DNA of 64,000 nt from Ophiura sarsii (lineage: Eukaryota; Echinodermata; Ophiuroidea; Amphilepidida; Ophiuridae): NCBI GenBank assembly GCA_035610835.1, contig CM069449.1:36625098-36689097 (forward strand), read 5' to 3'. Under the pieces are notes generated by a model. It ran no database searches. It was not told the origin of the DNA and saw only the letters and a program-made list of their open reading frames with translations. This document shows positions 9,901-54,168 of this stretch, one piece after another; the first letter of the stretch is position 1; every line of letters begins with the position of its first letter. A program made the translations under genes and the position numbers.

Positions 9901-12900
9901 TGTGCTAAGACATTAAACATGTTTAATTTACTTTTTAGTGATTAAATCCTAAGCACTGTATTTACAGTGTAGTGGTTGGTAAATGCAGTTCAAATAATTG
10001 CTAAAAGCTTACCTATTTAATGTTAATGCTTGATTTCCTTTTTGTTTTGTTACTATTCGATGTGTATTATGTGTTTTCTGTTTTATTTGTTATAGCGCAT
10101 AGGGACTTAATTGGGTTATATGCGCTCAATGAGCAATGTTTGATTATTATTTGTTATTATTATGATGAAGAACGACCAAGTGAATTTCGTGCACACTTTT
10201 GCCTATTAAAATGAATAGACATTGAACACTTTTATGCCAAATATGTATATTTGGCGTCAAAACATCCACCGTTTTCCAATATCTTGCTTACATTTAATCA
10301 GAACCTGTAATGACAAGTATGCGCCTTTGTACAAGAAGAAAACTAGGCCATAAGGCAACTTAACATTTTGTTTTCAGGTAAACCTATTTTTCTAACCAGT
10401 ATACACTGTCGCTAAAGCTTCTGATTGTAATGACCATCGTAAAGTCTGTATACACTGTAAATTGGGTGTTTAGATCCTAAACACAAAGCTAAACACTATC
10501 TTGAAGACACTGTTTAAACATGTTTAATTACTAAACATGTTTACAACCTAAACACTAATGCTAAACACAAGTTTGACCTCACTTTCTAAACATGTTTAAA
10601 TGTTAAACATGTTTAGTGTCATTCATAATGTTAGCACTGAAACATGTCAACCACTTCAATGTTTAGAAAGCAAACATTTTAAGATGATCAAATGTTTAGA
10701 TTCTAAACATGTTCCGTGGCAGTACATGCAATCAGGCTGTCTCAGTGGTTGCTATGGCCGTCAACATGTTAGGTTGTGGTAAAAAGTTATATGAAGTTGA
10801 TGTGATATTGTTGGTAAGATGGTTAGTTAGATCCTATACTTAAATTCATCAAACTATTCGCTCATCATAAATGTACATCACAGCATATAGTATGCTGTAT
10901 CGAAGTTAAGTAAGCTTAAACTATACACACACACGATGAGCATAACAATTGATACTACATGTTAGGCTCTCACCATCTTACCTCGTAACATCTCACCAAC
11001 TCACTGAACAAAATTTGTGACCATAACATATTTGACGGCCTCCCACGTGATATCACAGTTCAATTTGGATAAATTTGAGATGGAAAATCTGATTTTCCAT
11101 CCCAATTTACTAAATACGATTAAATCCAAAATCCAAAATGGCGACAGTCGCTAACATGATCCAATACGTTCAACCAATAACATTCAATATTGTTCGTCAC
11201 GTGTTCAACTGATGTTTAAATGCTAAACGCCTGATAACCTAAACATGTTTAGGAAGTATTTACATCATATAACGTATGTGTTTAATTACTAAACGTATAT
11301 GGCCTAGGCCTAACGTGTTTAGCCGTGTTTAAAGTAAACATGTTTAGATGTTTAATTTCAAAACACTCAATTTGCAGTGTATTGTCAACCTTTTTTCGGG
11401 TTGTAAGTGTTATATGTGTTCGTTTTCACTACAGAAGTAACGATGACAAAGAAAACCGAAAGTCGGCAAAATGACGGTAGAAATGATAAGGACCTCCACG
11501 AAGAGAAAATTAAGAAGAAAAAGAAGAAGAAGAAGAAGAAAAAGAAGAAGAACAGCGAAAGACAAGAATACACAGGAGACAATAGCGAACATGACAATGG
11601 TAGAAGGCCTAGTGAAAATTACAACGACGAAAGGAAGGCTTCTGAAGTTGGATTTATTCGCAAAGACAAAACGAAAAAAGAAAACAACGAAAGTCGGGAA
11701 AAAACAGGAAGCAAATATAACGATGATGAATGTGGTGAGACATTTGAACACAATGACGGTGACGATAAGGCTTCAGATGTTGAATTGATGGGTAAAAGCA
11801 AGACGAAGAAGAAGATGAAGAAAATCAATATTCAGATAAATACAGGAAGCAAAAGCAACGATGATGAATGTGGTGAGACATTTAAACACAATGACGGTGA
11901 CGACAAGGCTTCAGATGTTGAATTGATGGGTAAAAGCAAGACGAAGAAGAAGATGGACAAAATCGATATTCAGATAAATACAGGAAGCAAAAGCAACGAT
12001 GATGAATGTGGTGAGACATTTGAACACAATGACGGTGACGATAAGGCTTCAGATGTTGAATTGATGGGTAAAAGCAAGACGAAGAAGAAGATGGACAAAA
12101 TCGATATTCAGATAAATACAGGAAGCAAAAGCAACGATGATGAATGTGGTGAGACATTTGAACACAATGACGGTGACGATAAGGCTACAGATGTTGAGTT
12201 GATGGATAAAAGCAAGACGAAGAATAAGATGGAGAAAATCAATATTCAGATAAATACAGGAAGCAAAAGCAACGATGATGAATGTGGTGAGACATTTGAA
12301 CACAATGACGGTGACGATAAGGCTTCAGATGTTGAATTGATGGGTAAAAGCAAGACGAAGAAGAAGATGAAGAAAATCAATATTCAGATAAATACAGGAA
12401 GCAGCAACGATGATGAATGTGGTGAGACATTTGAACACAATGACGGTGACGATAAGGCTTCAGATGTTGAGTTGATGGATAAAAGCAAGACGAAGAATAA
12501 GATGGACAAAATCGATATTCAGATAAATACAGGAAGCAGCAACGATGATGAATGTGGTGAGACACTTAAACACAATGACGGTGACGATAAGGCTACAGAT
12601 GTTGAGTTGATGGATAAAAGCAAGACGAAGAATAAGATGGAGAAAATCAATATTCAGATAAATACAGGAAGCAAAAGCAACGATGATGAATGTGGTGAGA
12701 CATTTGAACACAATGACGGTGACGATAAGGCTTCAGATGTTGAATTGATGGGTAAAAGCAAGACGAAGAAGAAGATGGACAAAATCGATATTCAGATAAA
12801 TACAGGAAGCAGCAACGATGATGAATGTGGTGAGACACTTAAACACAATGACGGTGACGATAAGGCTACAGATGTTGAGTTGATGGATAAAAGCAAGACG

Positions 12901-15900
12901 AAGAATAAGATGGAGAAAATCAATATTCAGATAAATACAGGAAGCAAAAGCAACGATGATGAATGTGGTGAGACATTTGAACACAATGACGGTGACGATA
13001 AGGCTTCAGATGTTGAATTGATGGGTAAAAGCAAGACGAAGAAGAAGATGGACAACATCGATATTCAGATAAATACAGGAAGCAAAAGCAACGATGATGA
13101 ATGTGGTGAGACACTTAAACACAATGACGGTGACGACAAGGCTTCAGATGTTGAATTGATGGGTAAAAGCAAGACGAAGAAGAAGATGGACAACATCGAT
13201 ATTCAGATAAATACAGGAAGCAAAAGCAACGATGATGAATGTGGTGAGACATTTGAACACAATGACGGTGACGATAAGGCTACAGATGTTGAATTGATGG
13301 GTAAAAGCAAGACGAAGAAGAAGATGGACAACATCGATATTCAGATAAATACAGGAAGCAAAAGCAACGATGATGAATGTGGTGAGACATTTGAACACAA
13401 TGACGGTGACGATAAGGCTTCAGATGTTGAGTTGATGGATAAAAGCAAGACGAAGAAGAAGATGGAGAAAATCAATATTCAGATAAATACAGGATGCAGC
13501 AACGATGATGAATGTGGTGAGACATTTGAACACAATGACGGTGACGATAAGGCTTCAGATTTTCAATTGATGGGGAAACAAAAGAAAAAAACACAGAAAA
13601 CCGAAAGTCGGGAAAATGCAGAAAATAAAAACGTACATACTGATTCAGACGCGGTAACCATGGTAACGAAGGATTTAAACATTAAGTCATATGACGTAGA
13701 GAGCATACACCGTGATGCGGGAATAAAAGACAGGAACGACACAGCTTTCACAATGAATCATTCTTTTCAACATTCATTCATCGACTTTGTCAACATGCAA
13801 GACGGACATGAAAAAGGGCTTGCTACTGCAAACGGGCACAAAACAAATATCATAAGCAAGAACACTACTCCTCGTAGTCAGAAACGAAGAAGGACAAGGA
13901 AACAGCCGTATTGGAGAAATGATCCAAATTTTATCTTTACTTCTATAATCCCAAAACCACGAAATAGACATAAAAAAGAAGTAAAAACAAACGAACCACG
14001 TAGAAATTTGAAAAATAAAGAACGGTGTGAAAGCGTCGGGGTAAGGAGAGGAGGGCAATGTCAAGAAGGAAGTGATGACAGCAAGATGAGTCAAGCAAAT
14101 GCGGAAAGTAGTAGCGAAGATGCTAACGTTAATAATGGTAACCAAGATGATGGCGAGGATAAGAGTTCAGATATAAGAACGATGGGCAAAGAAAAGATGA
14201 AAACGAAGAACAGCAAAATTCAGGGAAATACAGAAAGTAGTAGCGACGATGATGAAAAGAAGGAGAAGAAGAAGGAGAAGAAGAAGAAGAAGAAGAAGAA
14301 AGGTCAGGAGAATACAGAAAACAGCAGCAGGGATGATACATTTTATGGTAAACATGACAAAGGTAGTACATGTAGGCCTGGTGAAAATTACAATGACAAA
14401 AGGAAGGCTTCTGAAGTTGGATTTATTCGCAAAGACAAAACAAAAAAAGAAAACAACGAAAGTCGGGAAAAAACGGGAAGCAAATGTAACGATGATGAAT
14501 GTGGTGAGACATTTGAACACAATGACGGTGACGATAAGGCTTCAGATGTTGAATTGATGGGTAAAAGCAAGACGAAGAAGAAGATGGACAACATCGATAT
14601 TCAGATAAATACAGGAAGTAAAAGCAACGATGATGAATGTGGTGAGACATTTGAACACAATGACGGTGACGACAAGGCTTCAGATGTTGAATTGATGGGT
14701 AAAAGCAAGACGAAGAAGAAGATGAAGAAAATCAATATTCAGATAAATACAGGAAGCAGCAACGATGATGAATGTGGTGAGACATTTGAACACAATGACG
14801 GTGACGATAAGGCTTTGATGGGTAAAAGCAAGACGAAGAAGAAGATGGAGAAAATCGATATTCAGATAAATACAGGAAGCAAAAGCAACGATGATGAATG
14901 TGGTGAGACATTTGAACACAATGACGGAGACGATAATGCTTCAGATGTTGAATTGATGGGTAAAAGCAAGACGAAGAAGAAGATGGATAAAATCGATATT
15001 CAGATAAATACAGGAAGCAACAACGAAGGTGATGAAGATAGGAGACCTGTTGAGAACCCCCACTATGATGGCGGCGATGAGGATAAGACGACTTTGGACG
15101 TTGAATCGACTAGTAAAAAGAAGAAGAAGAAGACAAAGAAGAAGAAGAAGAAGAAGACAAAGAAGAAGGAGAATGAAGGGGATGAAGATAGTACCGATGA
15201 TATCGAGACTCCAGACGTCAACTTTGAATTACTGGGCTATGATATCGAGACTCCAGACGTCAACTTTGAATTACTGGGCTATGATATCGAGACTCCAGAC
15301 GTCAACTTTGAATTACTGGGCCTTATCGATGATGATGACGGTAGTAAGACGAAGAAGAAGAAGAAGAAAAAGAAGAAGAAGAAGAAGAAGAAAGAGAAAA
15401 TCGATATTCAGATAAATACAGAAAGCAACAACGAAGGTGATGACGATAGGAGACCTGTTGAGAACCCCCACTATGATGGCGGCGATGAGGATCAGACGAC
15501 GTTAGACGTTGGATCGACTAGTAAAAAGAAGAAGAAGAAGAAGAAAAAGAAGAAGAAGAAGAAGAAGAAGACGACAAAGAAGGAGAATGAAGGGGATGAT
15601 GATGAAAGTTATATTCATGAAAAAACAGGAATCAATAACAAAGAAAATGAAGATGAGAGTAGTAGTCATGGTGAGAACTCCGGTTATGATCACGAGGATG
15701 AGGATACCGAGACTCCAGACGACAACTTTGAACTGGGCTTTAACGATGATGATGATGACGGTAGTAAGACGAAGAAGAAGAAAAAGAAGAAGAAGAAGAA
15801 AAAGAAGAAGAAGAAAGAGAAAATCGATATTCAGATAAATACAGGAAGCAACAACGAAGGTGATGACGATAGGAGACCTGTTGAGAACCCCCACTATGAT

Positions 15901-18900
15901 GGCGGCGATGAGGATAAGACGACGTTAGACGTTGGATCGACTAGTAAAAAGAAGAAGAAGAAGAAGAAAAAGAAGAAGAAGAAGACAAAGAAGGAGAATG
16001 AAGGGGATGATGATGAAAGTTATATTCATGAAAAAACAGGAATCAAATACAAAGAAAATGAAGATGAGAGTAGTAGTCATGGTGAGAACTCCGGTTATGA
16101 TCACGAGGATGAGGATACCGAGACTCCAGACGACAACTTTGAATCACTGGGCTTTAACGATGATGAAGACGGTAGTATTAATTACTTAAGCCAAAGTGAC
16201 AGCGCGGCGAGCGAGACTTCAATGACCGGCGAAAAGATGAGGAAAAGAGAGAGTACAGAAAGTAGAATAACATATGTTGAGCGTAGTAATCAAAGCGTGG
16301 ATAATGATGTGGATAGCAATATTTCAGATGATATACCGATTGGCAAAGGCGAAAAGAAGATGAAAAGAGGAAGAAATACCCAAATTATCAATAAGAAAAA
16401 GAAAATCTCTTTACCTGATAATTACCAAAAGAATAGCGCCAAATTCAAACACGGAGAGAAAACTCATGACGATGACGAAGATGAAGCAGAAAGTGATGGA
16501 AGTAAGTCGGCCTTCGAGGATGTGTCTGTTCCGACAACTTGGACATTTGAGCTATCGCAAGAGGATTGGTTAATAGTTTCGCCCACTAAAGAGTGTCCAC
16601 ATAAACTTAGGACGGGGTGGACTGACATCTTCTACGATAAATTCAAAGCAGTCAACAAATCATGTGTGCTCGTCGTGAAAGCCCAACACATAAAAAAAGC
16701 AGGGTCCAGAAAAATACACTCGCCATACTTTATGGGAAAGGCTAAATGTGCCATGGGCACGTGTTGCTCATACACTTTCTCTATCGAAAAGAAGCCAGCT
16801 TCAGGCAATGTTATCGTTGTCGTCACCCGCCTTGGGCACATTTTGCACCAGAAGTGTGACTTCAACAAGCGAAAATGTAAAGGTACTCTTCGGAAACAAC
16901 TCGAAAACAAACTGGACAAGAAAGCCCCATCGGAAGTGTATTTTTCAGAAATGGCGGAAATGACGTCTACCGAATTTGAGGCTGGTAACCTCACTGCGTG
17001 CCAATCCAGAAATGTATTAAAAGCAGTAGCTTCAAAGGCAAAATCAGTGGAGAAGTTACACCAGGACCTATTTCGTGAACTTATTCTAGGCATGGAGCTG
17101 TACCGTGACACCGATGTACATTCCAGGGTCATTCCAGGCTTCATACAATATCTGTCATATGATCCTCTTGTCATAATCATATTCACCGAAGAGCAGATAC
17201 AGAAATTGTGGAATGCCTGTAAAGATCCACAAAGTGTCCTGTGTTTTGATGCCACCGGAGCTCCTATTTTGAGACCAACTGACAACCCCAAGAAGATATT
17301 CTTCTATTCCATCATTTTGGCGACAGACAAGGGGGAACCTACGCTGCCAATTGCAAGCATGTTTTCCAACAGCCATTCAATGCCAACCATAACCCATTTC
17401 CTGATGCTGGTGAGGAGGTCATTGTCGGAACTTCATAGCTCAAAACGCAAACTACCGACAATAGAAACTGACTGGAGTTGGGGAATGGTTCAATCGGCCT
17501 GCATGGCAGCAAATAACATGAACATAACAAAATATATAGAATGTATATTTCGTGGTGATGAGGCACAATTGACTCCAATCCATATATGTGCAGCGCATGT
17601 CCTGCACCGCGTAGCCCAAAAGTGCACAAAACTAGAAAAAAGACGACAGCAGAGGGATTTTCTAGTGTTCATTTTCCGGCTCTTGATGACACAGACATCT
17701 ATTAACTCAATGACAGCGGTTTTGAAGCTAGTGTGTAGAGTGCTCCTGACAAAGACAAAAACACCCAATGTTATAAAAAAAACAAAGAAACTTCACCGGT
17801 TACTGCGGACACCAAGCAAAGAGGTACCGGAATTGGACTCTCTGGATGATGATACCAAGGAGTTAGATGACATACCTGTAACTGCGCAAACTCTACGCGA
17901 AAGGTCTCCGTACTTTGCTTATTTCAAAGTTATCATTGAAAAAATAAAGGACAAGAAGGCGTCGCGGAGTCATCATGGTCATGAAGACAATCCCCTGTTC
18001 TATCCCCAATTCGTTGACATGCTTCTCAAGGACTACTTGCCATTTGCACCTCTATGGTCTGCAATGATGATACGACACCAACAACCCGAGGAGGAACCGC
18101 GTTTGACCAATTGCGAGATAGAACAGTGGATGGGTCAAGTGAAACACAGGATCTGGGCCAGAAAATCCCAAATGAGACCATATTGGGCCATACGAAAACT
18201 GTACACATCTGTGAAAGGACGGGAGCGTCACCACACGATAACAAAGCGGCGAAAGTCAAAATGTCCTTCAAAAATTGATGAGACTGTTCTCGAGGAAGTG
18301 TGGACGCCAAAAAAAAGGGGCAGAAAGTCATCCAAATATTTCATCCTTAGCAAAGGCCAAAGCAGTAGTAAAATAAGCAAGGTATCGACGAAGGCGATGG
18401 AGAAGAATACAGACAGAGGCACGAAAAGGAGCAGGGTGTTGATGGAGGGGATTGAGAAGAATACAGGCAGAGACACGAAACGGAGCAAGGTATTGACGAA
18501 GGAGGTGGAGAATAATGCAGGAAGAGGCAAAAAAATGAGCAAGGTATTGACGAAGGAGAATACAGACAGAGGCCAGAAAGGGACCAAGGTATTGACGGAG
18601 GAGATGGAAGAGAATACGGGAAGAGGCACAAAAAGAAGCAAGGTCTTGACGAAGGAGAATACAGACAGAGGCCAGAAAGGGACCAAGGTATTGACGGAGG
18701 AGATGGAGGAGAATACGGGAAGAGGCACAAAAAGAAGCAAGGTCTTGACGAAGGAGAATACAGACAGAGGCCAGAAAGGGACCAAGGTATTGACGGAGGA
18801 GATGGAAGAGAATACGGGAAGAGGCACAAAAAGAAGCAAGGTCTTGACGAAGGAGAATACAGACAGAGGCCAGAAAGGGACCAAGGTATTGACGGAGGAG

Positions 18901-21900
18901 AATACGGGAAGAGGCACAAAAATGAGCAAGGTCTTGACGAAGGAGAATACAGACAGAGGCCAGAAAGGGACCAAGGTATTGACGGAGGAGATGGAGGAGA
19001 ATACGGGAAGAGGCACAAAAAGGAGCAAGATCTTGACGAAGGAGAATACAGACAGAGGCCAGAAAAGGACCAAGGTATTGACGGAGGAGGTGGAAGAGAA
19101 TACATTTAAAGGCACGAAAAGGAGCAAGGTGTTGACGGAGGAAAGGAAAGGTACCCAGAAGGAAAAAAAGCCAGCACCACCAAAAGGTTTATCTTGGGGT
19201 GGTTCTTACAAAGCAATTGACATTCACAATACGTGTCCTGTAGATAATCTGATGACGGCTTTTCATATGATACTTCTCCGGCGACCAGACATCCTCAATG
19301 CCCTTAAAATAAGGTCGAGCATGCCTGGAGCACATCCGTGCCCTATCATATTAAGAATGCATGGTCTTTTTCTAAAAGAACATTGGGATGCCGGTCGATA
19401 TCTTTGGCTGAACGACGTACTTCAGCTAGTACCAAAGAAAGGCACAATAGACGTATGGGGAGGCGAAAACGAACGATTTGTTGCTGAACTGGCGCCTATT
19501 CAAACGTCGATAACCATCAGTACATGTGATAATACCAGATGCCCTCGAAAAACACGGTGGATGGCGAGTAATGATATTAACCTCAAGTAAGTTGAACTAT
19601 ATTTGATATCCTTCTTTCAACCATTTACTAAATGGCACTTTGGGCGCAAAACTGCGTAAATTTGCGTAATGCAACATAAGCCTCGTATTATTTTTTATGA
19701 ACTGAAATCAAGCGTTCAATTGTCTCTGTTATGTGCCTATCGAATAAAACTTGTATTCACTCCTCCGATTTTCATAACCCAATTTCTGACAATATTACAT
19801 ACTTATTATGTGCTATTGATTCGATTTCAAATAAAGACTTCAGTTTTATGGGGATGGTCCAAATTTATTTCAAAACCTAAAATGTTTGCTTCCGGCTCGA
19901 CTGTACTATATCCCCACACATGCTAACATTATAGGCCCTTGAAGGGGAGGGGTCATACAAATAATGACGTAAACTGGCTGTATACACACAACAACAACAA
20001 CAAAACCCGGGATAATTTGTTTACTAACAATGTCAGTAATTTAATGATGGAATTTCTCAGTCACATTCGTGCATGTCGTGAGAAATAAGAAATGAAATAC
20101 ATACATTTTTATTATTAAATGTTTATTTTATCTCTTCTAAAAAGTCCATTAAAAGGTGAAAAGACCAAGACGATTCAAGACCATCTAGACATGTGGGAAA
20201 ACAATCCTGGTGAGAAGGTGTGCAACTTAACTCTAGCTGATGGACAGGAAGGCACCAGGAAGGAGGTTGATGTGACTGTTTTGAACTCAGATGACGAATA
20301 TACCACAGTAACGTAAGATTAATTACTATGAATTACCTCGAATTCAAAGAATATTTTATGAGGGAGCATGGAGCACTGCTTCAAAAATGACTCAAATGTT
20401 GAAAAGTACATGTGACAAAATTGTACATGAGGGATCCAATACAACATGACAAGATGACATCAAACTGTACTTTCTATAGAGCAATGTTTAAATAGAGACC
20501 GTCGTCATCATGATCACGCATGTGCATTCTACACTAAAGACCAGACTGTCCAAGAAGTGTGATTTTCCTGTGGACCCGGCTGTATCGGTTTTTCGTACTA
20601 TTATATTTAACTTGTAAACTTATTTGTTTTCCATTTTAGTGTGGAGGAGAACAAATGCACGGGTGTACGTACTATGGCACCGCGACGTTTTGAATATTCT
20701 CCAGCACCGATAGCCGTCATCAGTGTAGAAAACCTGAAAATCACAACAAAGACCCTGAATGAACAACTAATTTTGTCTAACTGCAGGTGAGTATCAATTT
20801 TTAAAGGTCAAAGAATACAATTTGGAGATTTTATTTTTGACCGAATTTTGTTCATCTAGTTTGCAAGTGATTGTAGGTTTATAATTAATAGTGAAATTAC
20901 CTAAATTTTGCATTTTATAGTTCTCCCTCAATGATGTGTTGCAATTTATTATACATTCATACTTCTGAGCTGTTCAATATTTGACCTAACATTACTGTTT
21001 ATTTCCACTATATTACGCTCCCGTCCTTTCACAGATAGATGTGTACCGTTTTTGCATGGACCAATAAGGGCTCATTTGTGATTTTCTGGCCCAGATAATG
21101 TATTTTCACTTGGCCCATCCACTGTTCCACTAAATGAAATGTTTGCTGAGCCAATCAAGATTAACGTCTATTGAGATAATAATTGTCTGCATTATGCCTT
21201 ATTAAGCGTTAATTACAATCGCAAAATGTTCAAGGGAAATCTATAAAATCACAATTCACAAATCACATTATGGATTCCTGAGTTCGAACATATCGGATAT
21301 TAACAAAAAATACAAAGACTGTCACAGAGGTTCGTTTATCTAAATGCATAATGTGATTCAATATATTATACTGTTACGGTTATACAATTACGAGGTCCAT
21401 TTTGGCGGTCATTATGAATTTAAAGTAACAAAGCAAACGTACTGGATACGAGTTTCAAGAGATCTATCCCATTGTTAAAATTTGACTTTACATTTTGGTT
21501 GTGAAATTTGACATTTTTTTTCAAAATTTCAGTTCACTTACATCTTGAATATGTTTTAAGACCACAAAGGATGTTACAAAGGTTGGTTTGTAGTTGGTTT
21601 TGGGAGTATGGATGGCACACAGGGCCCTCTCAATACGAAAACTGTCACTACTATAATGTACATACCTCAATGTTAAGTCTTTAAAGGGGCATTAAGAGAT
21701 CCTTCATGAAGGGAGCCCTCATTTTTTTATCAGAAGTTGGGTTTTTCGCATACGTATTGCTTATAAACAAAGAAGCTGCGTCGGCATTAAATAATATCAA
21801 ATATTATACGTACTAACTACCATCCAAAATAATAGAGCTTAATTCGGAGTATTTCATGTGAAATTCATGGATTTGATAGCGTTTCGAGTTTCGATGTGAT

Positions 21901-24900
21901 GACATAGAAACTACCAAATTCATCTAAAATGGCCACATATGGCTTCTTGCTTATTTGTTTCATGTTCATTCAAAATAACCTTGAAGACCACCCATGGCTT
22001 GTTGCGTGATGCATAACCTACCTGATTCAATTGGTGGTGATTTTGAACCAAAATACAAACAAAGTGAAAAGCACTAATATACCCTCGGAAATGCTGAGAA
22101 AATGTCTTTATTTTTCATTTTTACTGATTTCTTTTGAAGAAATCTTACATGAGAGGATATCTAAATGCATAATGTGATTCATCTATCTATCTAAAAAAGG
22201 TGAAAATATTGAATTTCATTTTTTGAGAAATCTCTCCATGCCCCTTTATATATTCATTAATTTTGTCTACCGTACGAATGCAGGTATCGACTTTATGCAG
22301 TTACCAGGATGATTCGTAGTCATTTTGTGGCATATATGTTACAATGGCCAAATGCTGCTGGAAAGAAACAGATACTTCTGTACAACGATATGAAAACACC
22401 TATATTTAAGAGAGCAGACAGAATGAATTTACAAGACGCCCAGCACCTAGTGTATGTTCTTAACGAAGAGCATACTGGGATATTCGATACACAGTACTCT
22501 ACCTTACACAAGGTAGGCCTTATGCAATTTAAACATTTATGATATCGATCAGTCTATATTTTAGGTAAAACTTATAGGAAGCCTATATGGCACAGACACG
22601 GCAGAACAAATATAACCAAGCTGGTTATTCGAGATAGTTGCCTAATGATCTGATGATATGATAAACAAAATACAAAATGTTGATTTGTTAACAGCACAAA
22701 ATACAAAATGACGGCCATGCAGGTGAAAAACGCCCTCTATGCAAATATGGTTCGCATTATGTATCACGCGTACTGCAGGGGGTACTGTCGGACGTAAAAT
22801 GCTCGTTGCGGCTCTACGAGCAATTTTGAATCGACGTTTTCTTGTACAAAGAGGGCTGATTTTTCTTAATCCTTATAGGTGTAAGTTCATACATGTAATA
22901 CAATTATAAAAATATACTAATCCCAGTTTTTATCATAACTAAGGGCGCAGCCTCCAACACATCTCTTAGTGCCCCTTTAACAATTAACCTAAATCAAATT
23001 ATTCGTCCTGCGTATTCCAACGCAATGTGTTAAGCAATCCCCACAAAACACTGCAAAAAGTCACATTTTGTTCTTGAGATTCATTCAGAGATAGTTCAGC
23101 AAAAAGGGTATAAGAGGAGCTTCAAATATTGAAATATGAGTTTTATAACTACCGATTTATAGCAGTTTGAGGTACATTTTTGTTAAATTTGTATTCAAAA
23201 CAGGATGGATTTCAAGTTCGTATCCAGCATGGAGACCTTGCAAAAGTGAAAGCAGATGTCATCGTCAATGCTGCTAACAGTTACCTACAACATGGAGGGG
23301 GTGTTGCAAAAGCACTTTCAGAAGCAGCAGGGCCCTCTCTACAGATCGAGAGCGATAGACTTGTGCAGAAATGCGGCGCAGTTTCTGTTGGCAAATGCGT
23401 CGTTACAGGTGCTGGTCTACTGAATGCCCAGCACGTAATACATGCAGTTGGTCCTATGGTTGACAAGCACACCGAGCACCCTCATCTGCTTTGCAAAGCA
23501 TTTTCCAGCGCACTCGAAACAGCCTGCAAGCTGAAAGCACAGATAGTTGCAATACCGCTGATAAGTTCGGGTAAGTGTTTGTACATGCATGTAAAAACAT
23601 AGACGATGCCGGACACGGCTCGTTCACGAATATTTCAAGGTTTATATTATGCGTACGACGAGGTACGAGCTACCGTGATCAAACAATGATCCTGACCTCG
23701 AATGGGACGAAACATACTAACACTGAAGTAGGCCATTCGTGTCCACCATCGTCTGTAAAAAAACATGGGCGTATCCAAGAGGGGTGGGCCGCCTTTGCAA
23801 CCACTCGCGGAAATTTCAATGTTTTACTTTAATTTCTGTCCAATTTCCGGGTCAGGTTCAAGGTGTCGACCAGGGGAAACTATTCAAATTAGTATAAAAA
23901 TAGCATTGTGTTCGCGCTGTCCGTTCATGACCCGAATATTATTTTAGAAACGCATTTAAAAACAAGCAGTGGCAAGGATCACTTCTATTCTTGTCGCCTA
24001 TAGTTTATCACCTTATACGTCATAAAATGAGGGCCTATGACGGAATGACAGTCTATTTTGACAATTCCATGGCGTAAATCGAGGATAAGTCGCAATGATC
24101 TCCCAATCTTTGATCATGGGGATGGCCCATGTTATAATCATTATCCCATTATGATTATTTATAAATTGAATGATCAATGACGCTTTTTCAACGGAGAAAT
24201 AAATCTTTGGAAATTCAATTAACTTTTAAGAGTTAATCCAAATTCGGCTCATTTTGTCTTCTCTTGAGAACATTCACTGTAAAAAGATGCGTTTATATTT
24301 CTGATAACACTTAATAAACACTTCAACACGTTTATTTTTGTGTTTTATGTGTAAAGGAGTGTCAATATTTATTAACACACCAACATGTTTATATCAGCAA
24401 TAAGAAACATGTTGGGGTGTTAATAATGATACAACAAATACCTCTATAAACGTGTTGTAGTGTTTATACAAACGTTTATCGTATGTAATGCCTCCTATAC
24501 CTTTACACGTAAAACATAAAAATAAACGTGTTGAAGTGTTGATAAGGCGAATCTGACCGGGAAAACAGCTCATTGATCGGGAAGACTGTTCAAACTATCG
24601 GCCAAAAGGCGTGGAAGTAATTTTTAAATTTTCTGTATAGTTTGTGTGGTGGGTTTATAGAAAAAGCACTGTTGATTATTTTATTGAGCTCCTTTTTCCG
24701 CGCCAGTTTGGAGACAACGCGAACCTCCCCCTCCCACCCGCTCAAATTTCTGACGAAGCGCCATCGTCTACCGGGAAAAACACCCTTTGCCCCCCCCCCC
24801 CCCTCCCCCACCCCCCCCCCCCCCCCCCCCCCCCCCCACTGAAAAATACCCCAGATACGCCACTTGCGTAAGCATGTCCCTAAATTGATTTACATTTACC

Positions 24901-25299
24901 CCACCCATTCGGAGTTTATATATATGCCTAAAAGTAAGTTCACGAAATTGGACTCACTAATCCCGTCTTAAAAATACAAATTCTGCTAGCTTCTCGCCCT
25001 TTTAGATGATGTGAATTTCGTCCAAAACTCTTCTCTGCGTGAGGCTTTCTATGAACATGATGAACCCCCATTTGGGTTCCATCGGGACGTGGGATGGTCA
25101 TTTCGTATTAATGATCTCTGTTTAATCCGTATCTTTATCTTTAGGTATATATGGCGTTAGTGTCGACGACGCATGTCAAGCACTGAAGAAAGCGACCAAG
25201 TCTCACATGGCGAAACAAACAACAATTAAAGTGGTTAATGTCATCATAAAGAAGAAGAAAATGGCGAGTTACGTGAGAGCATTAATGCGTGGACAGTAA
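689..25299 (+). CDS. Eight-exon gene: MULE-like transposase / USP-like protease / macrodomain fusion
   Basis: Overall gene model, joining 689-919, 8084-8201, 11435-19586, 20145-20312, 20640-20786, 22284-22512, 23204-23570 and 25145-25299. All seven introns start GT and end AG, each junction keeps phase (0,1,2,2,2,0,1), and the sum is 3188 codons plus TAA. Residue numbers below use the ATG at 689. Order: acidic start (1-77), basic linker (78-116), Lys/Asp/Glu repeats (about 117-1800), C2H2-type zinc finger (about 1888-1921), DDE core with D2055, D2129 and E2346, repeat linker, USP-like protease (C2717, H2952, D2974), macrodomain (3016-3188). MULE transposases move DNA, USP proteases cut ubiquitin-type isopeptide bonds and macrodomains bind ADP-ribose. 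Whether this protein does any of these is inference. It could be a domesticated transposase or a transposon that captured domains. The true 5' end is uncertain, because the first exon may extend back to an acceptor at 644. Confidence 0.75.
920..2230. other. Intron 1, unique-looking part
   Basis: Non-coding AT-rich intron. A sequence at 1111-1132 (ACGAGGGTCATTCAATAAGT) resembles a mariner-type terminal repeat, but no partner end was found. Nothing else was recognised. Confidence 0.5.
3143..3190. repeat. Hairpin of array unit 1
   Basis: ACTAGCGG, then GCCCGTCCTTCGGACGGGC, then CCCGCTAG: an inner 8-bp perfect stem with a TTC-centred loop inside an outer inverted repeat CTAGCGG/CCGCTAG. Equivalent hairpins lie at 5390-5432 and 6518-6560 with loop bases TAC and TGC. 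Confidence 0.8.
4325..4368. repeat. Hairpin of array unit 2 with a different inner stem
   Basis: The same outer CTAGCGG/CCGCTAG repeat encloses ACCCTCGCTGCGCTCGGGT instead of the GCCCGTCC stem. It forms an imperfect stem (ACCC/GGGT and GC/GC with an internal mismatch). Confidence 0.65.
7500..8083. other. Intron 1, 3' part
   Basis: Non-coding sequence between the tandem array and exon 2. Only short chance frames; it ends in the exon 2 acceptor tract. Confidence 0.5.
8084..8201 (+). CDS. Exon 2, short basic linker
   Basis: The exon is bounded by acceptor gaattcacag (ends 8083) and donor AATG|GTGAGT. It encodes about 39 residues rich in Lys and Arg (LQKKANIKAHDTRDKSGRF then VRRGEKASKARLIKNIRKHN). 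It enters in phase 0 and leaves in phase 1, which fits the acceptor at 11434, where G plus AA makes Glu. The segment is basic and probably nuclear or nucleic-acid facing; no domain was recognised. Confidence 0.6.
8390..9063. mobile_element. Foldback DNA element with CAGGGTGAGTCAGAAAG ends
   Basis: The left end CAGGGTGAGTCAGAAAGAAG and right end CTTCTTTCTGACTCACCCTG are inverted copies extending over 150 bp each (for example AACATCACTAATCCGGGTAA on the right). TA flanks both ends. A third, more diverged inverted copy of the arm lies at about 8650-8840, so the interior is itself a duplicated arm. No transposase is present. It lies in intron 2 of the fusion gene. Confidence 0.8.
9064..10452. other. 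Intron 2, no gene recognised
   Basis: AT-rich sequence with a local tandem duplication of GTTGTAAAAAAGT-type sequence (9700-9750) and scattered AAACATGTTTA words. No exon with fitting splice sites was found. Confidence 0.45.
10453..11379. mobile_element. Nonautonomous TIR element just upstream of exon 3
   Basis: Left end TA|CACTGTAAATTGGGTGTTTAG and right end AAACACTCAATTTGCAGTG|TA are inverted, giving an element of about 927 bp with a TA target duplication. The interior is rich in the palindrome AAACATGTTT. It is consistent with a Tc1/mariner-type or related MITE. It ends about 55 bp before the exon 3 acceptor. Confidence 0.75.
11435..19586 (+). CDS. Exon 3, giant exon: repeat region, zinc finger, MULE-type transposase core, protease start
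   Basis: One open exon of 8152 bp between acceptor ttttcactacag and donor CTCAA|GTAAGT. It opens with EVTMTKKTES and polylysine. Next come 14 tandem copies of a roughly 46-residue unit with core NDDECGETFEHNDGDDKASD, a unique stretch, four more copies, and three larger units with polylysine blocks. From about 16530 the sequence becomes ordinary protein. C-x4-C-x24-H-x2-H near 16747-16848 resembles WRKY/FLYWCH-type fingers seen with MULE transposases. FDATG (17248), ETDWSW (17470), HICAAHVLH (C-x2-H) and NCEIEQWMGQVKH (18121) fit the MULE D-D-CxxH-E layout. After a 33-residue repeat linker, HNTCPVDNLMTAF (Cys at 19234) matches the Cys box of USP-like proteases, followed by CDNTRC. Residues outside the motifs were not compared with any database. 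Confidence 0.8.
11700..13610 (+). repeat. Intra-exon tandem repeat, 14 units of about 138 bp
   Basis: Fourteen in-frame copies of a 135-138 bp unit encode NDDECGETFEHNDGDDKASD, VELMGKSKTKKKM and DKIDIQINTGSKS-like segments. Variation is limited to a few alternations: K/E after the TF/TL, D/G in LM-GK, and the GSKS/GSS length difference. The strong conservation, including synonymous sites, indicates recent expansion or homogenisation. Each unit has one Cys. Confidence 0.9.
14475..15020 (+). repeat. Second block of the same 138-bp coding repeat (4 units)
   Basis: Four more copies of the NDDECGETFEHNDGDD unit; the third is shortened by deletion of the ASDVE portion. The preceding segment (ENYNDKRKASEVGFIRKD) repeats the segment that precedes the first block at about 11615, so a larger stretch was duplicated inside the exon. 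Confidence 0.9.
15020..16190 (+). repeat. Three larger coding units with polylysine blocks
   Basis: Three related units each contain RRPVENPHYDGGDED, a Lys-rich block from AAG/AAA runs, and an acidic piece with ETPDVNFELLG or ETPDDNFE. In the first unit a 17-residue piece (YDIETPDVNFELLG) is itself tripled (15188-15320). The reading frame stays open throughout, so selection or recent origin keeps it in frame. Confidence 0.85.
18380..19140 (+). repeat. 99-bp coding minisatellite between transposase and protease domains
   Basis: Six copies of a 33-residue unit containing KENTDRGQKGTKVLTEEMEE and NTGRGTKRSKVLT, preceded by diverged copies from about 18390. One copy lacks the EMEE block. The repeat is highly charged (Lys, Arg, Glu) and likely a flexible linker. 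Long open frames on the opposite strand here are mirrors of this repeat. Confidence 0.9.
19587..20144. other. Intron between exons 3 and 4
   Basis: 558 bp, AT-rich, with a short CAA microsatellite near 19990. No feature was recognised beyond the splice sites. Confidence 0.6.
20145..20312 (+). CDS. Exon 4, USP-like domain insert region
   Basis: The exon lies between acceptor ctcttctaaaaag and donor GTAAC|GTAAGA, with phase 2 at both ends. The first base completes Asn with AA from exon 3. It encodes 56 residues, including PLKGEKTKTIQDHLDMWENN and GEKVCNLTLADG. Position and length fit the fingers region between the Cys and His boxes of USP proteases. Only some of the expected zinc-ligand cysteines are visible, so the zinc site may be lost or atypical. 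Confidence 0.65.
20640..20786 (+). CDS. Exon 5, USP-like domain
   Basis: Acceptor ttttccattttag ends at 20639 and donor TGCAG|GTGAGT follows 20786. The phases join exactly to exons 4 and 6. It encodes 49 residues, including VEENKCTGVRTMAPRRF and YSPAPIAVISVENL. The last part resembles the hydrophobic strand (P-x-x-L/I-x-I-x-L) that precedes the His box in USP folds. Confidence 0.65.
20787..22283. other. Intron between exons 5 and 6
   Basis: Non-coding. It contains an inverted-repeat element at 21681-22249 and otherwise nothing recognisable. The short sequence CTAAATGCATAATGTGATTCA occurs twice (21340 and 22160). Confidence 0.6.
21681..22249. mobile_element. MITE-like element with TTAAAGGGGCAT ends
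   Basis: TTTAAAGGGGCATTAAGAGAT at the left and ATCTCTCCATGCCCCTTTATA at the right form imperfect terminal inverted repeats, 569 bp apart. A further right-type end (ATCTCTTAGTGCCCCTTTAA) lies at 22960-22981, so a second, truncated family member may flank exon 6. Confidence 0.65.
22284..22512 (+). CDS. Exon 6, His and Asp boxes of the USP-like protease
   Basis: Acceptor acgaatgcag and donor CACAAG|GTAGGC bound 229 bp. The exon encodes YRLYAVTRMIRSHFVAYMLQ, then QILLYNDMKTPIF. SHFVAY carries the candidate catalytic His (22321, residue 2952) and LYNDM the Asn-Asp pair (Asp at 22387, residue 2974). With the Cys at 19234 this completes a USP-type triad. The spacing (about 235 residues Cys to His) is within the range of compact USP domains. 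It ends in phase 0 before the macrodomain. Confidence 0.7.
22513..23203. other. Intron between exons 6 and 7
   Basis: Non-coding. It carries a TIR-like end at 22960-22981 related to the element at 21681. No other feature. Confidence 0.55.
23204..23570 (+). CDS. Exon 7, macrodomain (first two thirds)
   Basis: Acceptor attcaaaacag and donor TTCGG|GTAAGT. The translation begins DGFQVRIQHGDLAKVKADVI and contains VNAAN (Asn at 23267 and 23276), HGGGVAKAL, AAGPSL, VVTGAGLL, VIHAVGP and IPLISSG. These are the ordered signature motifs of ADP-ribose-binding macrodomains. The HGGGVA loop is the type found in the first macrodomain of PARP9/PARP14-like proteins; it lacks the Asp of the MacroD GGGVDG loop. 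Binding of ADP-ribose is likely. Hydrolase activity cannot be decided from this. Confidence 0.85.
24270..24550. repeat. Inverted-repeat element in the macrodomain intron
   Basis: AACACTTCAACACGTTTATT near 24308 is inverted at 24518-24540 (AATAAACGTGTTGAAGTGTT). AACACACCAACATGTTTAT pairs with AACATGTTGGGGTGTTAAT in the middle. The left edge CACTGTAAAAAGATGCG resembles the ends of other TA-type MITEs here, but a matching right end was not found. Confidence 0.6.
24787..24838. repeat. Polycytosine tract
   Basis: About 50 bases almost entirely C, with a CTCCCCCA break. It sits next to TACCCCAGATACGCCACTTG, a widespread invertebrate repeat end, so it is likely the low-complexity edge of that repeat. 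Confidence 0.8.
25145..25299 (+). CDS. Exon 8, macrodomain C-terminus and stop
   Basis: Acceptor atctttag ends at 25144. The first base completes the Gly codon begun in exon 7, giving SSGIYGVSVDDACQAL, the second ADP-ribose-binding loop. The exon continues with KKATKSHMAKQTTIKVVNVI and a short basic tail and ends at TAA (25297-25299). No clear AATAAA signal was seen in the next few hundred bases. Confidence 0.8.
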
Positions 25300-28200
25300 T
25301 GATCTAAACTAACTTTCTGGAAATTCCCAAAAATTCCTGGACAGGAAAACGTGCAATGTAGAGAAGGAAATTCAGAGATGAACACTTTGACTATAGACCA
25401 TTTCAAATTGAGATCGGAAATCTTCGGAAAACAGCTCACGTGGAGTAGGTGCGTTGCGCGTTCTTCGCAACAGTTGATCGCATTCACAGTATTGTCCTAT
25501 ACTCTGTTTGGCCATCTCGAGACAGTGACGTAACTGAACAGGCGCAGCTTTTACGCACGCGTGTGTATCTTCCGCCTTTCAACGCTCGTGTTCCAGCGCG
25601 CATTATGTGATGCAATTAGTAGAATAGTTGATTGTCGCCTAGTGATTTACTATGTTTACATACACGCGTGCTTACATGAGAAGTAAAACGTGGAACGAGA
25701 CTAATTTGTTCTTTTATCAACAATGGAGTTGACGGGCAAATTCCAAATGTATCGAGCAGACGGTAAAAAGTGAAAATATATTACCCCAAATCTCTTTTAC
25801 CTCGCCGTTTTTGTTACTGAAATGCCGCAACATCAACTTTGTGAGGAATACAATCTATCTCCAACACCAGCGCAATCTACCACACGGGCAGACGGGTGAA
25901 AAACACGTTTGTTTTTCTCCGGCACATGGACATGACCTGTCAGGAGCTGACAGGTCATGGAACCGAGTGTTTACACTCGGCTAATCGGAAACATTCGGAA
26001 CCGATCGTATATTTTCGGATTTGAAATTGTCAATAGTGAAATACCGTACAGTTATCACTATGAACTCCTCTCTCAAACTGTTCAGTGCATCAAGTTGTGA
26101 ACTACATGAAGCGATAATCATAATGAATACAGTATGGATGACAACAGTCTTGGCACCAAAGGAGGAGGATATTCTTAAAAGTGTATGTAAATAATACACA
26201 TGATAAAGTATTGCCACTGCTATAGTATATTATCAACGTTTTAAAGGTATAGATGACCCGATCACATTTTCGTAACACAGAATTATTTCAACATACGGAG
26301 ATTTTCATATCATATGAAAGCGTATTTTTCTCATCATCATACTGAAATTTGACGGCCTAAATCGGTATAATTACGGAGAAATCGATCAAATAACGTCGAA
26401 TTACCGCGAATGGTGGTAACCACCGATATAGTTTGTGTACTACTCAATGGGTACAGTTCACAGCATCTTGTGCGTCTAAAATAAGAACCATTAGAGCTAT
26501 GCAACTCAAACTTTGGAACACGACTTTTTTAAAGATGGCCCTTTCATGTAGAATAGAAAACTTCAAGTTGAAAATCGGAACATCTACCTTTAATTAAATG
26601 TTTTTGTCAATGAGTTGATCATTTCTTTACTTGGTGTGCACGAGGCCTTTTTTCTGGACAACACGTGATTGATAAATTATTATTAATTTGATAATGATCA
26701 ATTAATCATACACTGACATGTCTGAATATTTGCTGTAAGATAATGAAAGCTCCGAAATGGATAGAAACATTCTTATTGGAACATAAATATTGCGGAACAT
26801 GAATTAATTATAACGTAAATTTTAAGAATTTTTCATTAAAAATCATGTTATACATGTACACTTTTGACACGCCTGTAAAAGCTTTAACGAAGAAATAATG
26901 TTATAATGTATGTGTTCTTCATATTTTGTTCAAAAAAGACTTATGGTGCTAAAACCATGTTTTAATTACCTGAATTGATCTTTAAAGCTGTGCATTATTA
27001 TATGTGGGGTGGGGGGGGGGGGGGGGGGGGGGGGGGTAAGGCGAGTCAAACATTATGTTATGTACGCATAAAACCCTCTATTTTCCAAACACGCGTAGCC
27101 TATTAACCGGCGACAATATACACGTGTTTGGAAATCGAGGGTTTTGCGTATAGAGAGGCCACTTGATGAACATGGAATTTCGTGTCACTTGTGGTGTTAA
27201 CATTATTCAGAAGACTTTATATTTTTACAATAATCTGGCTGACAAGGCTAAAAAGTGAAATGAACTGAGATATTTGTGTTATAAATCATGATTTTTATTT
27301 TTTATGCTAATATTGCCCAAAAATGCCAATTTTAAGAATATCTGTAACTATTAAAATAAATTAAGCAAAACTGTAATTAAAATTAGATTGTATATAATGT
27401 CTATCATAATAAATAACAAATTAATCCAATAATGCTATCTGGCTAGCCTTTTGGGGGTAAAAAGTGCCAATTGTTACTATTTTTTTACCAAAATTACATA
27501 GTTGGCATTTTTTCTGATTGTCTTTTCTTCTTGAAATAGTATCCATTTTGTTGACCAAAGCATTTAGATCAAAATTGTCATTTATACTTTTTTTTCTGTG
27601 ACTTTTAGGTTTTTGACCTATGAGCTTTTCACAAAAAGCCTGTTTTTGCCAATTTTTGCTGACTTCTACTTAAATATAACACTTTGATGTGCCAGTGGAT
27701 CTTCATATAGTGAAGCGGATACTAGTAATGTAAAAAAAAAATGGTCAAGATGTTCACTTCTGGCAGTATGAAAATTGGGTTATAGGGGTGATTTGATGTA
27801 CTGATTTCAAAAATCTAAAACCCAACAATTTTAGAGCAATGATTTGGTGGCCATCTTGGATTTCAAAATGGCCGCCATTCAAATATAGGAGATTTGGTAA
27901 AATTGCTCTACCTTTGATATTTATACATCAACATTTCACCAATATGATCTCTATAACACAGTGCAGAGTTTTAGAGGGGTTGGTTGTGCCAATTGTACTT
28001 TGATTATTCCTGGTTGCCATGGAAACAATAAAAAGAACAGTCATTTGGGGGGCAAAAAGACCTAATATAGAATTATTTATTTTTAACCTGTCCACAAAAA
28101 TGAACATCATGTATTGTATACCAAATCAACGCTTCAATTCTTAGGAATCTGCATATTGGAAAGTATGGTTGCTCTTTGAGTTTTGAACCTGTTTCCATGG

Positions 28201-29950
28201 CAACAGCTTCATTGTTTCAAGAACAATTCACATTCAGCTGTGCATCAAATTTGTGTCACCCTTGATAATTTCAGAATATTAAGTTTCCCCAAGAATACCT
28301 TTTGTGGGCAATTGCTTGTCCAAATATTGCAACATGTGTTCTTCATTATTGCAACTTGGTTACCATGGCAACCAAAAGTAAATGTTTTTATTTTAAAGAT
28401 ATTGTTGATGTCTTGAATTTATTTGTATATTATAAATTGTGAATTTCAGTTACTTTATCATCAATCAAATTTAAATTGCCACACACATGCCTATAGTGGA
28501 ATATGAAAGATAAAACTGACTGAAATATTAAACAGTTTTGTTTGGTAAGATTTTTTCGATCGCACAGTCTAATGAGGCCGAGGCTTCCCGCTCCATTCAA
28601 AATGGCTGCCATTGTTCAGGGATCAAAATCAAAATGATTTCAACTTAACCGACTTGCTCGTGGGAAATCAAGTTTATTATTAAGTTAGTTACATTAAAAA
28701 TGTATAGTTTGCCCTGATGTTAAAAAATGAACACTCTTTGCTATTAAAACCTTATTTGAACACCTTTTCCCTGCGTAACTCGCACGTTCAAACTTTGAAT
28801 ACTAACTGTTTATGTATACCACTATGTTGAACGTTTATATAGCTGCGACACATGCTCGTCACCCCAGGTTTACAGTCGAGTCATGTGGGTATTTCCATTA
28901 CTGCATATTAATATATATGGGCGATTCCATGAAAATGTGACGGAACAAAAAACTATAAATTGATCCAAAATAATTATTTTAACCTTCATGTTGTTCAAAG
29001 CCCATGCAAAGGTTCAGGGATTTGGCTATTGTTTACTATGAAAAAATTCTACTTTTCTTACTTTCAAAATTCAAAATTTGAGAGAATTCTTAAAACACTA
29101 AGTTTAATATCACCAATTGTTTTGTTTTGTCGAATAGGAACTATTATTAATATTATCCTACTCAAGTGATGTGCACGACGACAATGTTGCGCTCCCGCAG
29201 GTGGCACTCTGCATCATTGACCCGACTGCATGAATCACTAAAAAAAGGGAAACACCACTCAATCGGTCGTGCGCGGCACTGGCGAAATCGAATACATAGT
29301 TCCTATTCGACAGAATAAACGGACAAAAGTGGCAACAATGTGTAATGTTTTGCGGCTTATCTTAAAGGCATATTATGTAATCTTGTCCAGGGGGTGCTCT
29401 CTATTCATGATATTTTTAGAAATTGAATTACAATTTCTTGCCAGTGGCATAGCCAGGGGGTGGGGGCCCCCCTTAAAATTACCCTTTATTTTCACTCTTT
29501 AAAACCATAATTTTCAAGTAATTAGGAATAGTAGGCCTATCGCTCTGTAACTCAGAATATATTCATGATTTATGATCAGAAATGTAAATCTGCAAGAAAA
29601 TCTACTTTCTAAAATAAATCTTGAATAGAGGGCGCCCCTTGGAAAAGATCACAAAATATGCGGGTTGAGCATTGAGAGGAATATTTTGTTGGTCAGGCCT
29701 ACATATGTACTTGTCAATGGGAAATTAAATAGTGGCACCCCTTAGCTTATACGGACGGACGGGTCGGGTAAACGTGGTCGCAGTCGGCCCAATGGTTACC
29801 GATCTATACGCCACCAATGAAGAAGAATCTAGGAACAATTTAATGACAATGAAAATACCGGTATAATTATACAGAAATGAGATCGTCAACATGGTCAATA
29901 TTGTATTGTGTTAATCATTTATTATAGTATTAATTTCAAAGTTGTCGCAA
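25300..29950. other. Intergenic, no gene recognised
   Basis: AT-rich sequence downstream of the fusion gene. It contains a polyguanine tract (27011-27036), a hairpin (27067-27151), a GGTTGCCATGGAAAC-type motif occurring near 28011 and 28190-28205, and a repeat word CAGTGGCATAGCCAGGGGG near 29441. Reading frames are short and look random. Confidence 0.55.
27067..27151. repeat. Hairpin / short foldback
   Basis: CATAAAACCCTCTATTTTCC-AAACACG at the left pairs with CGTGTTTGG-AAATCGAGGGTTTTGCG at the right. This gives a stem of more than 20 bp around a roughly 35-base loop, directly after the polyguanine tract. Confidence 0.7.
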
Positions 29951-30145
29951 TACATCTATCATGTTTTGTATTCTTGTAATGTTATTTTGGCCTTGTTTAT
30001 ATTAATGTGTACATTGTGTTTTATGTTTGAGAACTTGCAAATAAAAATACATCTATCATGTTTTGTATTCTTGTAATGTTATTTTGGCCTTGTTTATATT
30101 AATGTGTACATTGTGTTTTATGTTTGAGAACTTGCAAATAAAACC
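29951..30145. repeat. 97-bp tandem duplication carrying AATAAAA
   Basis: TACATCTATCATGTTTTGTA starts at 29951 and again at 30048. The intervening 97 bp are repeated almost without change, each copy ending GAACTTGCAAATAAAA. It could be the 3' end of a retroposed sequence; no coding part was recognised. Confidence 0.8.
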
Positions 30146-30601
30146 CTACGGGCTAGAAAGTTTATTAAGGAGACCTGACCTTTTTCGTGGCATTTCCGCT
30201 GAATTTAAAACAATAAAAATAACGAAGGCAAATAATGTAAACATTTGCTACAATGTCTCAAAAAAGTAAGACCCCCAATTTTGATCCTTAAAAGGAAATC
30301 ACTTAGGCGGATCACTCTTTGGTCAATTTTCATTTACCTTGCAGAGATTAACTTTTCCTTTTCTTTAGGCTCAGTTTTAAAGCAAAATTCGATTAAAAGT
30401 TCACTTGTTACCTGTTAGCGTTGAGCATTGTTGAAAGAGGAATTAAACCCGTCAAACAGTCATTTAGAAGATAATGAGTATTTTAATTCATAATGATTAA
30501 AAAAAGATGACGGGGGAGTGGTGGATTTATCCAATGTGGCAACAGGTCAATGTTTACTTATGGTGTGATAGCGCGTCACTAAATAGTTCCGGAGCAAAAC
30601 C

Positions 30602-30756
30602 CGCCGGGATGCGATTTTTTGTTCGTACATCAGATCCTACATGTAGTGAAATCAGAAAAATCATTTCATTCAGAGAATTTTGCTTTATTCCGTATTAAAA
30701 CGGAATAAAGTTAATTTCACTAGGATCATGTACGAAAAAAAAAATGCCCCCGGGAT
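30602..30756. repeat. Short foldback element
   Basis: Arms with TTCGTACATCAGATCCTAC and TAGGATCATGTACGAAAAAA are inverted, centred on CTTTATTCCGTATTAAAACGGAATAAAG, itself a near-perfect palindrome. Ends read CGGGATGC and GCCCCCGGG. No target duplication was clear. Confidence 0.65.
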
Positions 30757-31026
30757 AACTTTCACAACTAGGCCTATATGCATATAAATACGCATCTTTA
30801 TGTGAACCATAGAATTGACAACGGCACCAAATACTGAGCTGAGAATGTTGTCCGTTGTCGACTTGTGTCGAATATAAGCCGAAATACGTACTACATGACC
30901 ATGATGATCGTCACAGTGACCTGATCGTGTTATCACAGGAATTGAAGCATTTAACTAGTCAAGGGCGATGTGTTTTTTGTTTTAATTTAAACCACCATAA
31001 TGTTTAGATTCAACAAAGACTACATC

Positions 31027-54121: not shown

Positions 54122-54168
<47 letters not shown>

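Follow-up and report, generated by a model that had tools for sequence, protein, structure and literature searches.

A predicted Ophiura sarsii gene joining a transposase-like core, a USP-like protease and a PARP14-like macrodomain

Proteases of the ubiquitin and SUMO type are known on transposons. Mutator elements of hydra and lancelet carry Ulp1, Ginger and Helitron elements carry OTU, and the Trichomonas vaginalis protein XP_001314237.1 combines transposase_11 with peptidase C19; in the same paper, Bao and colleagues put forward repair factors as the targets of transposon proteases (PMC2836005). The VTD deubiquitinases, whose active site is D-x-H, are also transposon-borne, most non-viral VTDs residing in Helitrons, and their later domestication in several lineages has been suggested (PMC9741609). 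Among related host proteins, USPL1 is a SUMO-specific USP without blocking loops, in which Cys236 and His456 are spaced by 220 (PMC8983731), and FHY3 (MULE-derived) and FLYWCH (Mutator-derived) genes have been retained in metazoans (PMC10027918). We describe a predicted gene of Ophiura sarsii, found in a stretch of 64,000 nucleotides (the window; GCA_035610835.1, contig CM069449.1, positions 36,625,098 to 36,689,097), that joins a DDE transposase-like core resembling that of Mutator-like elements (MULEs) to a USP-like protease and a macrodomain.

One predicted frame across six exons

The gene lies on the forward strand at 11443-25299, where six exons and five GT-AG introns (phases 2-2-2-0-1) give one stop-free predicted frame of 3070 residues. 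From the N to the C terminus, the predicted protein holds charged repeats, a zinc finger, the DDE/CxxH core, a repeat linker, the USP-like protease and the macrodomain (Table 1). The charged, repeat-rich N-terminal part takes up about 1690 residues, and the USP-like region is split over four exons, with the Cys box in exon 1 and the His box in exon 4. The open frame of exon 1 spans 11407-19590, has its first ATG at 11443 and leaves through a phase 2 donor, AA/gtaagt. By eye, a canonical-looking acceptor stands directly before this ATG, which would allow for a 5' non-coding exon. We infer that the six exons are joined in one mRNA.

An initial annotation of this locus had placed the gene start at 16530 and numbered residues up to 3188; the first ATG of the frame corrects the start, and those residue numbers are about 118 too high. 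The motifs it named all fall within the one spliced frame: the zinc finger at residue 1769, D1936 (CFDATG), D2010, CAAH and E2227, followed by HNTCPVDNL, SHFVAY, YND, VNAAN, HGGGVA and SSGIYG. All three junctions that it proposed (19586/20145, 22512/23204 and 23570/25145) are GT-AG with matching phases, and so are 20312/20640 and 20786/22284, which it had not included. Its C-x4-C-x24-H-x2-H finger is present as a motif, but we rejected the H-x2-H form as drawn, since the first His varies among the relatives compared below; the conserved pattern is C-x4-C ... H-x9-C.

Table 1. Features of the predicted gene (window coordinates)
Feature	Position	Strand	Remarks
Exon 1	11443..19586	+	8.1 kb; 2714 residues plus 2 nt; N-terminal repeats to USP-like Cys half
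Lys/Asp/Glu-rich coding tandem repeats, N-terminal part	11700..16177	+	138-bp units and derivatives; Tandem Repeats Finder
DDE transposase-like region	16531..18330	+	D1936 (17248), D2010 (17470), C2049xxH2052 (17587-17598), E2227 (18121)
Zinc finger	16747..16878	+	C1769, C1774, H1802, C1812; C-x4-C ... H-x9-C
Tandem-repeat linker, DDE core to protease	18376..19142	+	Tandem Repeats Finder; absent from P0001 and P0002
USP-like Cys half	19174..19586	+	N2596-T-C2598; finger C2695-x4-C2700
Exon 2	20145..20312	+	168 nt; USP-like domain; GT-AG, phase 2-2
Exon 3	20640..20786	+	147 nt; USP-like domain
Antisense related-DDE coding fragment in intron 3, outside mRNA	21015..21127	-	86% complementary to 18142-18210; tblastn; blastn with relic loci
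Exon 4	22284..22512	+	229 nt; USP-like His half: YRLYAV, H2833 (22321), N2854-D2855 (22384-22389)
Exon 5	23204..23570	+	367 nt; main macrodomain part (VNAAN, HGGGVA); Pfam Macro
Exon 6	25145..25299	+	Macrodomain end (SSG/IYG) and stop codon

The macrodomain is firmly predicted and PARP14-like. The spliced domain scores 112.1 bits against Pfam Macro (cut-off 22; E 2e-32), the exon 5 frame alone reaches 101.9 bits, and the ADP-ribose loops VNAAN, HGGGVA and SSGIYG are present. The nearest solved chain is that of PARP14 (3vfq, E 1.6e-36), and PARP9 also matches (E 5.7e-18). Macro, with a single match, was the only family found in Pfam scans of the gene. In the genome searched (1,573,662,873 bases in 748 contigs, to which C-numbers refer), macrodomain matches were also seen clustering in long open frames at C8:48.3-48.8, 62.3-62.6 and 11.6-11.8 Mb and at C7:49.9-52.3 Mb; some of these C7 and C8 frames hold several matches each, which suggests a PARP14-like expansion.

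A D-D-E triad with CxxH between the second D and the E is the MULE signature. In the window protein CxxH stands in this place, and the DDE/CxxH catalytic residues are identical in the window protein, in a second copy on C15 and in two related proteins, P0001 and P0002, which were the sole matches of a protein search and are 46-48% identical to it. The four zinc-finger ligands are likewise kept in P0001 and P0002, by alignment, and in the C15 copy, by translation and by eye. At the aligned site where exon 1 ends, P0001 and P0002 stop and the C15 copy has a donor. From the DDE/CxxH motif and its conservation in relatives, we consider the core to be transposase-like. The repeats of the N-terminal part were reported by Tandem Repeats Finder at 11700-13578, 14469-15020 and 14973-16177. 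P0002 has charged repeats of its own in this part, and the C15 copy reads open there for 790 residues, a charged stretch with a PYWRxDxxF peptide in common with the window (by eye).

The protease region has its predicted catalytic residues in USP order: N2596, C2598, H2833-F and N2854/D2855, with Asn two before Cys and an aromatic residue after His. The YRLYAV strand resembles YNLYAV of USP2 and is followed by a short loop, H-F and then YND. A USP-ordered pattern (Cys box, YxLxAV-type strand, H[YFW]x[ASG][YFHL], ND), written post hoc, occurred in 0 of 20,000 shuffles of the region, and that of the Cys box by itself in 63. A four-Cys zinc finger is present in the fingers subdomain of several USPs; here, in both the window and the C15 copy, C-x4-C is kept and exons 2 and 3 each contain one Cys, at an unusual spacing. 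The type first assigned, USP rather than Ulp1, agrees with Cys standing before His, the aromatic residue after His and YND. Ulp1 (C48) proteases run His, then Asp, then Cys along the chain, and this assignment was rejected because the window Cys stands first. A VTD was also rejected, since Asp-x-His (motif from PMC9741609) is absent and the residues before H2833 are R-S. On these motifs and their conservation in relatives, we regard the domain as a USP-like protease.

A second locus, constraint and the protease module elsewhere

The architecture is largely repeated at a second locus, C15:69.43-69.45 Mb, where the DDE core, the USP Cys exon, exons 2 and 3 and both macrodomain exons occur in the order, strand and phases of the window, at overall protein identities of about 29-56%. 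This agrees with the domain order initially proposed, except that a recognisable His exon is missing there. The C15 DDE part is 50-53% identical to that of the window; the longest other DDE matches, at 69445308-69446991 and on the same strand as the other modules, reach 52-53%, and the macro exon (69439132-69439470) is the best match of the window macro exon elsewhere in the genome, at 55%. The USP Cys exon, 38-40% identical, lies between the two. Exon 3 (162 nt, same phases) is 45% identical over 40 residues (E 8e-6); exon 2 (165 nt, same phases), 29% identical and with E 0.98 alone, was placed by its splice sites and position. Exon 5 has 388 nt, against 367 nt in the window, with equal phases in and out. 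The last exon, running from C15:69431022 downward and 8.1 kb past the macro exon, is 30% identical over 37 residues (E 1.9e-4); its AG acceptor is in the same phase, and it stops at about the same point. By arithmetic, the chance that one of the 38 macrodomain matches of the genome (E <= 0.001) falls within 10 kb of a given locus on the same strand is about 1e-4. In a tree of 27 macrodomain rows (the window, C15 and 25 from other loci of the genome, identical rows dropped), the exon 5 macrodomains of the window and C15 are sisters (99/99); both branches are long and were flagged by the tool.

We compared nonsynonymous (pN) with synonymous (pS) change between the window and C15. Synonymous sites are almost saturated and nonsynonymous sites are not, with pN/pS pairs of 0.31/0.79 in the macro exon, 0.31/0.80 and 0.33/0.82 in two stretches of the DDE region, 0.39/0.88 in exon 3 and 0.38/0.74 in the USP Cys exon. 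Nonsynonymous change being clearly the lower, the architecture is old and has been held under protein-level constraint. Against five relics, differences at third codon positions were 1.7-2.2 times the mean of the other two positions; three of the five, on C1, look like mutual duplicates and are therefore not independent.

The Cys module is not confined to these copies. The USP Cys exon weakly matches two other open frames, C7:70731652 (E 0.14) and C16:62569890 (E 5.9), and a profile built from the window, C15, P0001 and P0002 found both among 1575 open frames (C7 2e-10, C16 1e-6). Alignment of the two groups by hhalign gave 97.6% probability (E 2.6e-12), and NTCP-DN, W-x-G and C-x4-C are invariant in all six sequences. 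The C16 frame has 1671 residues and ends in the USP-like Cys module. It matches a chromodomain (E 4e-6, above the Pfam cut-off), its first 1030 residues gave no notable Pfam match, and neither His nor macro exons were seen in about 3.9 kb downstream. The large C7 frame is similar, with a chromodomain match below the cut-off (E 2e-4). A 400-residue query found one open copy of this family (C16), one frame-broken copy (C7) and fragments on C3 and C10, a pattern on the basis of which we call it transposon-like. Since the module also ends a chromodomain protein, it has long been a partner of at least two large proteins, recurrent rather than a single accident.

Other searches added little. None of 1338 candidates in a USP-only protein search reached E <= 1, a profile search returned P0001 as its sole match, and a search of viral contigs yielded nothing useful. 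Exon 4 matched only the window itself in the genome at E <= 0.001, and weak His-exon matches at C3, C14 and C9 (E 1.0-2.6) were rejected because their translations had no His box.

Retained gene or other readings

Computation shows an open gene model, catalytic residues that are kept, constraint across two loci and a layout mostly repeated at C15. We read them as one gene derived from a DDE transposon and retained by the host, whose predicted product would be nuclear, bind DNA and ADP-ribose and take ubiquitin or SUMO off proteins, a reading that in its entirety we regard as evenly balanced between right and wrong. We think it likelier that the intact copy is a retained gene, domesticated or nearly so, than that it is an active transposon.

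Several observations weigh against this reading. Neither AATAAA nor ATTAAA occurs in the first 1.2 kb past the stop. The C15 copy is decayed, with a frameshift in its DDE part, and a search of the stretch from exon 3 to the macro exon did not find its His exon, the best of 28 candidate exons there scoring 25 (comparing the window exon to itself gives 403); for these two reasons C15 is probably a pseudogene or misassembled in that stretch. A direct link between exons 4 and 5 is accordingly seen in the window locus only. The constraint spans the shared history of the two loci and is by itself no proof of present host use. Six relic regions (C10 46.5 Mb; C1 64.4, 68.9, 75.3 and 75.4 Mb; C15 41.3 Mb; those at C1 56.3 and 63.0 Mb were left out) have coding-sequence homology confined to exon 1, at 74-97% DNA identity, so copies were made, as by a transposon. 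At E <= 10, Pfam matched neither the window DDE region nor P0001 or P0002 to a transposase family, in scans whose HMMER filters drop most weak matches, and for this reason the core is called MULE-like and not MULE; a PDB sequence search with the DDE region returned two weak unrelated matches only. For the protease region, the Pfam UCH/USP profile did not match and the PDB sequence search gave one weak unrelated match only. Comparison with human USP2 by hhalign was no better than with shuffles, 99 of 200 reaching the score of the whole region and 11 of 200 that of the C-terminal part, and the modest Smith-Waterman score of the His half against USP2 was reached by 69 of 5000 shuffles. This weak direct comparison is why we term the domain USP-like.

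The alternative that survives best is a low-copy, dying DNA transposon whose captured protease and macrodomain served transposition, the window holding its last intact copy; we consider it possible but rather doubtful. The DDE region gave at least 49 match rows at E <= 10, in the window, at C15:69.44 Mb and in eight other places, each cluster within 0.1 Mb being taken as a single place. The window rows are the core and the intron 3 fragment, the window copy is the only intact one among the matches listed, and the eight other places hold decayed DDE pieces. Such a spread, an intact DDE catalytic set, the 92-97% DNA identity of the C10 relic and the like pattern of the C7/C16 family, with its open copy, broken copy and fragments, are what a dying transposon would leave. 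On the other side, USP or macro exons were absent at E <= 1 from the six relic regions, where homology ends within exon 1, and terminal inverted repeats were not found in limited scans: no 14-nt inverted seed was shared between 5000-11442 and 25300-32000, a scan that shorter or diverged repeats would escape. A high-copy repeat, moreover, sits just upstream of the start. A cluster at C8 56.15-56.17 Mb combines diverged DDE pieces with a USP Cys relic of the C7/C16 family, and the 35 kb examined there hold no macrodomain match.

The repeats that flank the gene belong to high-copy families. At 10453-11379, by eye, lies a complete-looking short inverted-repeat element with ends CACTGTAAA / TTTGCAGTG and TA on both sides, 64 bp 5' of the start codon; its high copy number was judged from the best 40 of 190 candidates scored. 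About 0.9 kb 3' of the gene, 26241-26593 is a uniform high-copy repeat (95-98% identity among the best 40 of 721 candidates, the window included). As both (26241-26593 and the upstream one, to about 11380) are high-copy repeats, we rejected them as the gene's own ends.

It is unlikely that the protease module is another papain-like domain or a dead one, with neither deubiquitinase nor deSUMOylase activity. The missing UCH/USP profile match, the lack of a significant hhalign match to USP2 and a second USP signature that is incomplete by the PROSITE pattern would fit such a domain. They stand against the Cys-His-Asn/Asp order, Asn two before Cys, the aromatic residue after His, YND and the likeness of YRLYAV to YNLYAV, and against a Cys-first order unlike that of Ulp1 and the absence of the VTD D-x-H.

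In the macro exon frame of either locus, no ATG precedes the domain after the last stop before it, so its start must come from an upstream exon. That there are two neighbouring genes instead of one, the first with transposase and USP and an end near 22540, the second with the macrodomain and a 5' exon that escaped recognition, is improbable, for although the exon 4 frame reads on to a stop at 22540 and exon 4 meets exon 5 in one locus only, the exon 5 acceptor fits the phase left by exon 4, neither AATAAA nor ATTAAA lies in intron 4 of the window, and the two loci, though diverged, share these neighbours and their orientation.

Further repeats and an unrelated frame were noted elsewhere in the window. 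Nested long inverted repeats at 8386-9067 have 125-nt arms that are 100% complementary. An open frame of 597 residues at 33618-35411 matches RVT_1 (E 1.8e-32) and is perhaps part of a LINE-type element. Tandem arrays at 36176-44137, 47586-49630, 52815-54900 and 56788-63997, with periods of about 180, 92 and 34 bases, fill more than half of the window's right half.

Working model and known systems

PARPs mark DNA breaks, transposition breaks among them. If the retained-gene reading holds, the zinc finger and DDE core would bind DNA in a presumably nuclear protein, and the PARP14-type macrodomain would bind, and possibly hydrolyse, ADP-ribose, so that ADP-ribose made by PARPs at a break or on chromatin would recruit or hold the protein there. 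A protease of USP fold would then remove ubiquitin, or with equal likelihood SUMO, from proteins on the bound DNA, stripping marks for degradation or repair choice and thereby protecting the transposase or steering repair. That three activities (guided binding or cutting of DNA by the DDE part, ubiquitin or SUMO removal, and the reading or erasure of ADP-ribose) act together on one chain, as a DNA-directed eraser at PARP-marked breaks kept by the host after its parent transposon died, is a proposal we make tentatively. The pairing of a protease with an ADP-ribose domain suggests such a purpose, action at PARP-marked DNA breaks, whereas the reason why transposons repeatedly gain ubiquitin and SUMO proteases is still at the stage of proposals (PMC2836005, PMC9741609). 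Because the modules are separable, lie in a single frame and each have a standard assay, the question is testable.

The predicted protease could equally remove SUMO or ubiquitin. We keep the SUMO alternative because its short loop before His recalls the missing blocking loops of USPL1 (PMC8983731): the stretch from the AV strand to the catalytic His has 6 residues in the window protein and 10 in USP2, which is a hint only. The Cys-His spacing is 235 in the window protein against 220 in USPL1, a comparison that extends to spacing and loop only (PMC8983731).

Literature searches, covering open-licence papers, found no macrodomain joined to a transposase. One apparent precedent, PMC5982333, with the terms 'MULE', 'transposase' and 'macro domain', was set aside because, in the part concerned, the names belong to separate genes. 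The initial reading stands as to one predicted fused protein, its USP type and its PARP14-like macrodomain; its novelty as an animal counterpart of plant MULEs does not, the Ulp1-bearing Mutators of hydra and lancelet and the Trichomonas C19 fusion being already in print (PMC2836005).

Mutator-like and Ginger1 transposases likewise combine DDE with a ubiquitin/SUMO-type cysteine protease, in animals as well, but their proteases are Ulp1 or OTU, while that of the window protein is USP-like and is followed by a macrodomain (PMC2836005). XP_001314237.1 of Trichomonas has a protease of the USP class on a transposase, as here, but the transposase is transposase_11, the host is a protist and a macrodomain is unmentioned in the excerpt cited (PMC2836005). 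VTDs are alike in being deubiquitinases on transposons, but their D-x-H active site does not occur in the window protein (PMC9741609). FHY3 and FLYWCH show Mutator-type sequences kept as animal genes, with neither a protease nor a macrodomain partner mentioned in the part of that paper used here (PMC10027918). PARP14 and PARP9 have similar macrodomains, whereas the window gene has one Macro match and no PARP domain. Transposases that bear proteases are thus known, with Ulp1, OTU, VTD and, in one case, C19.

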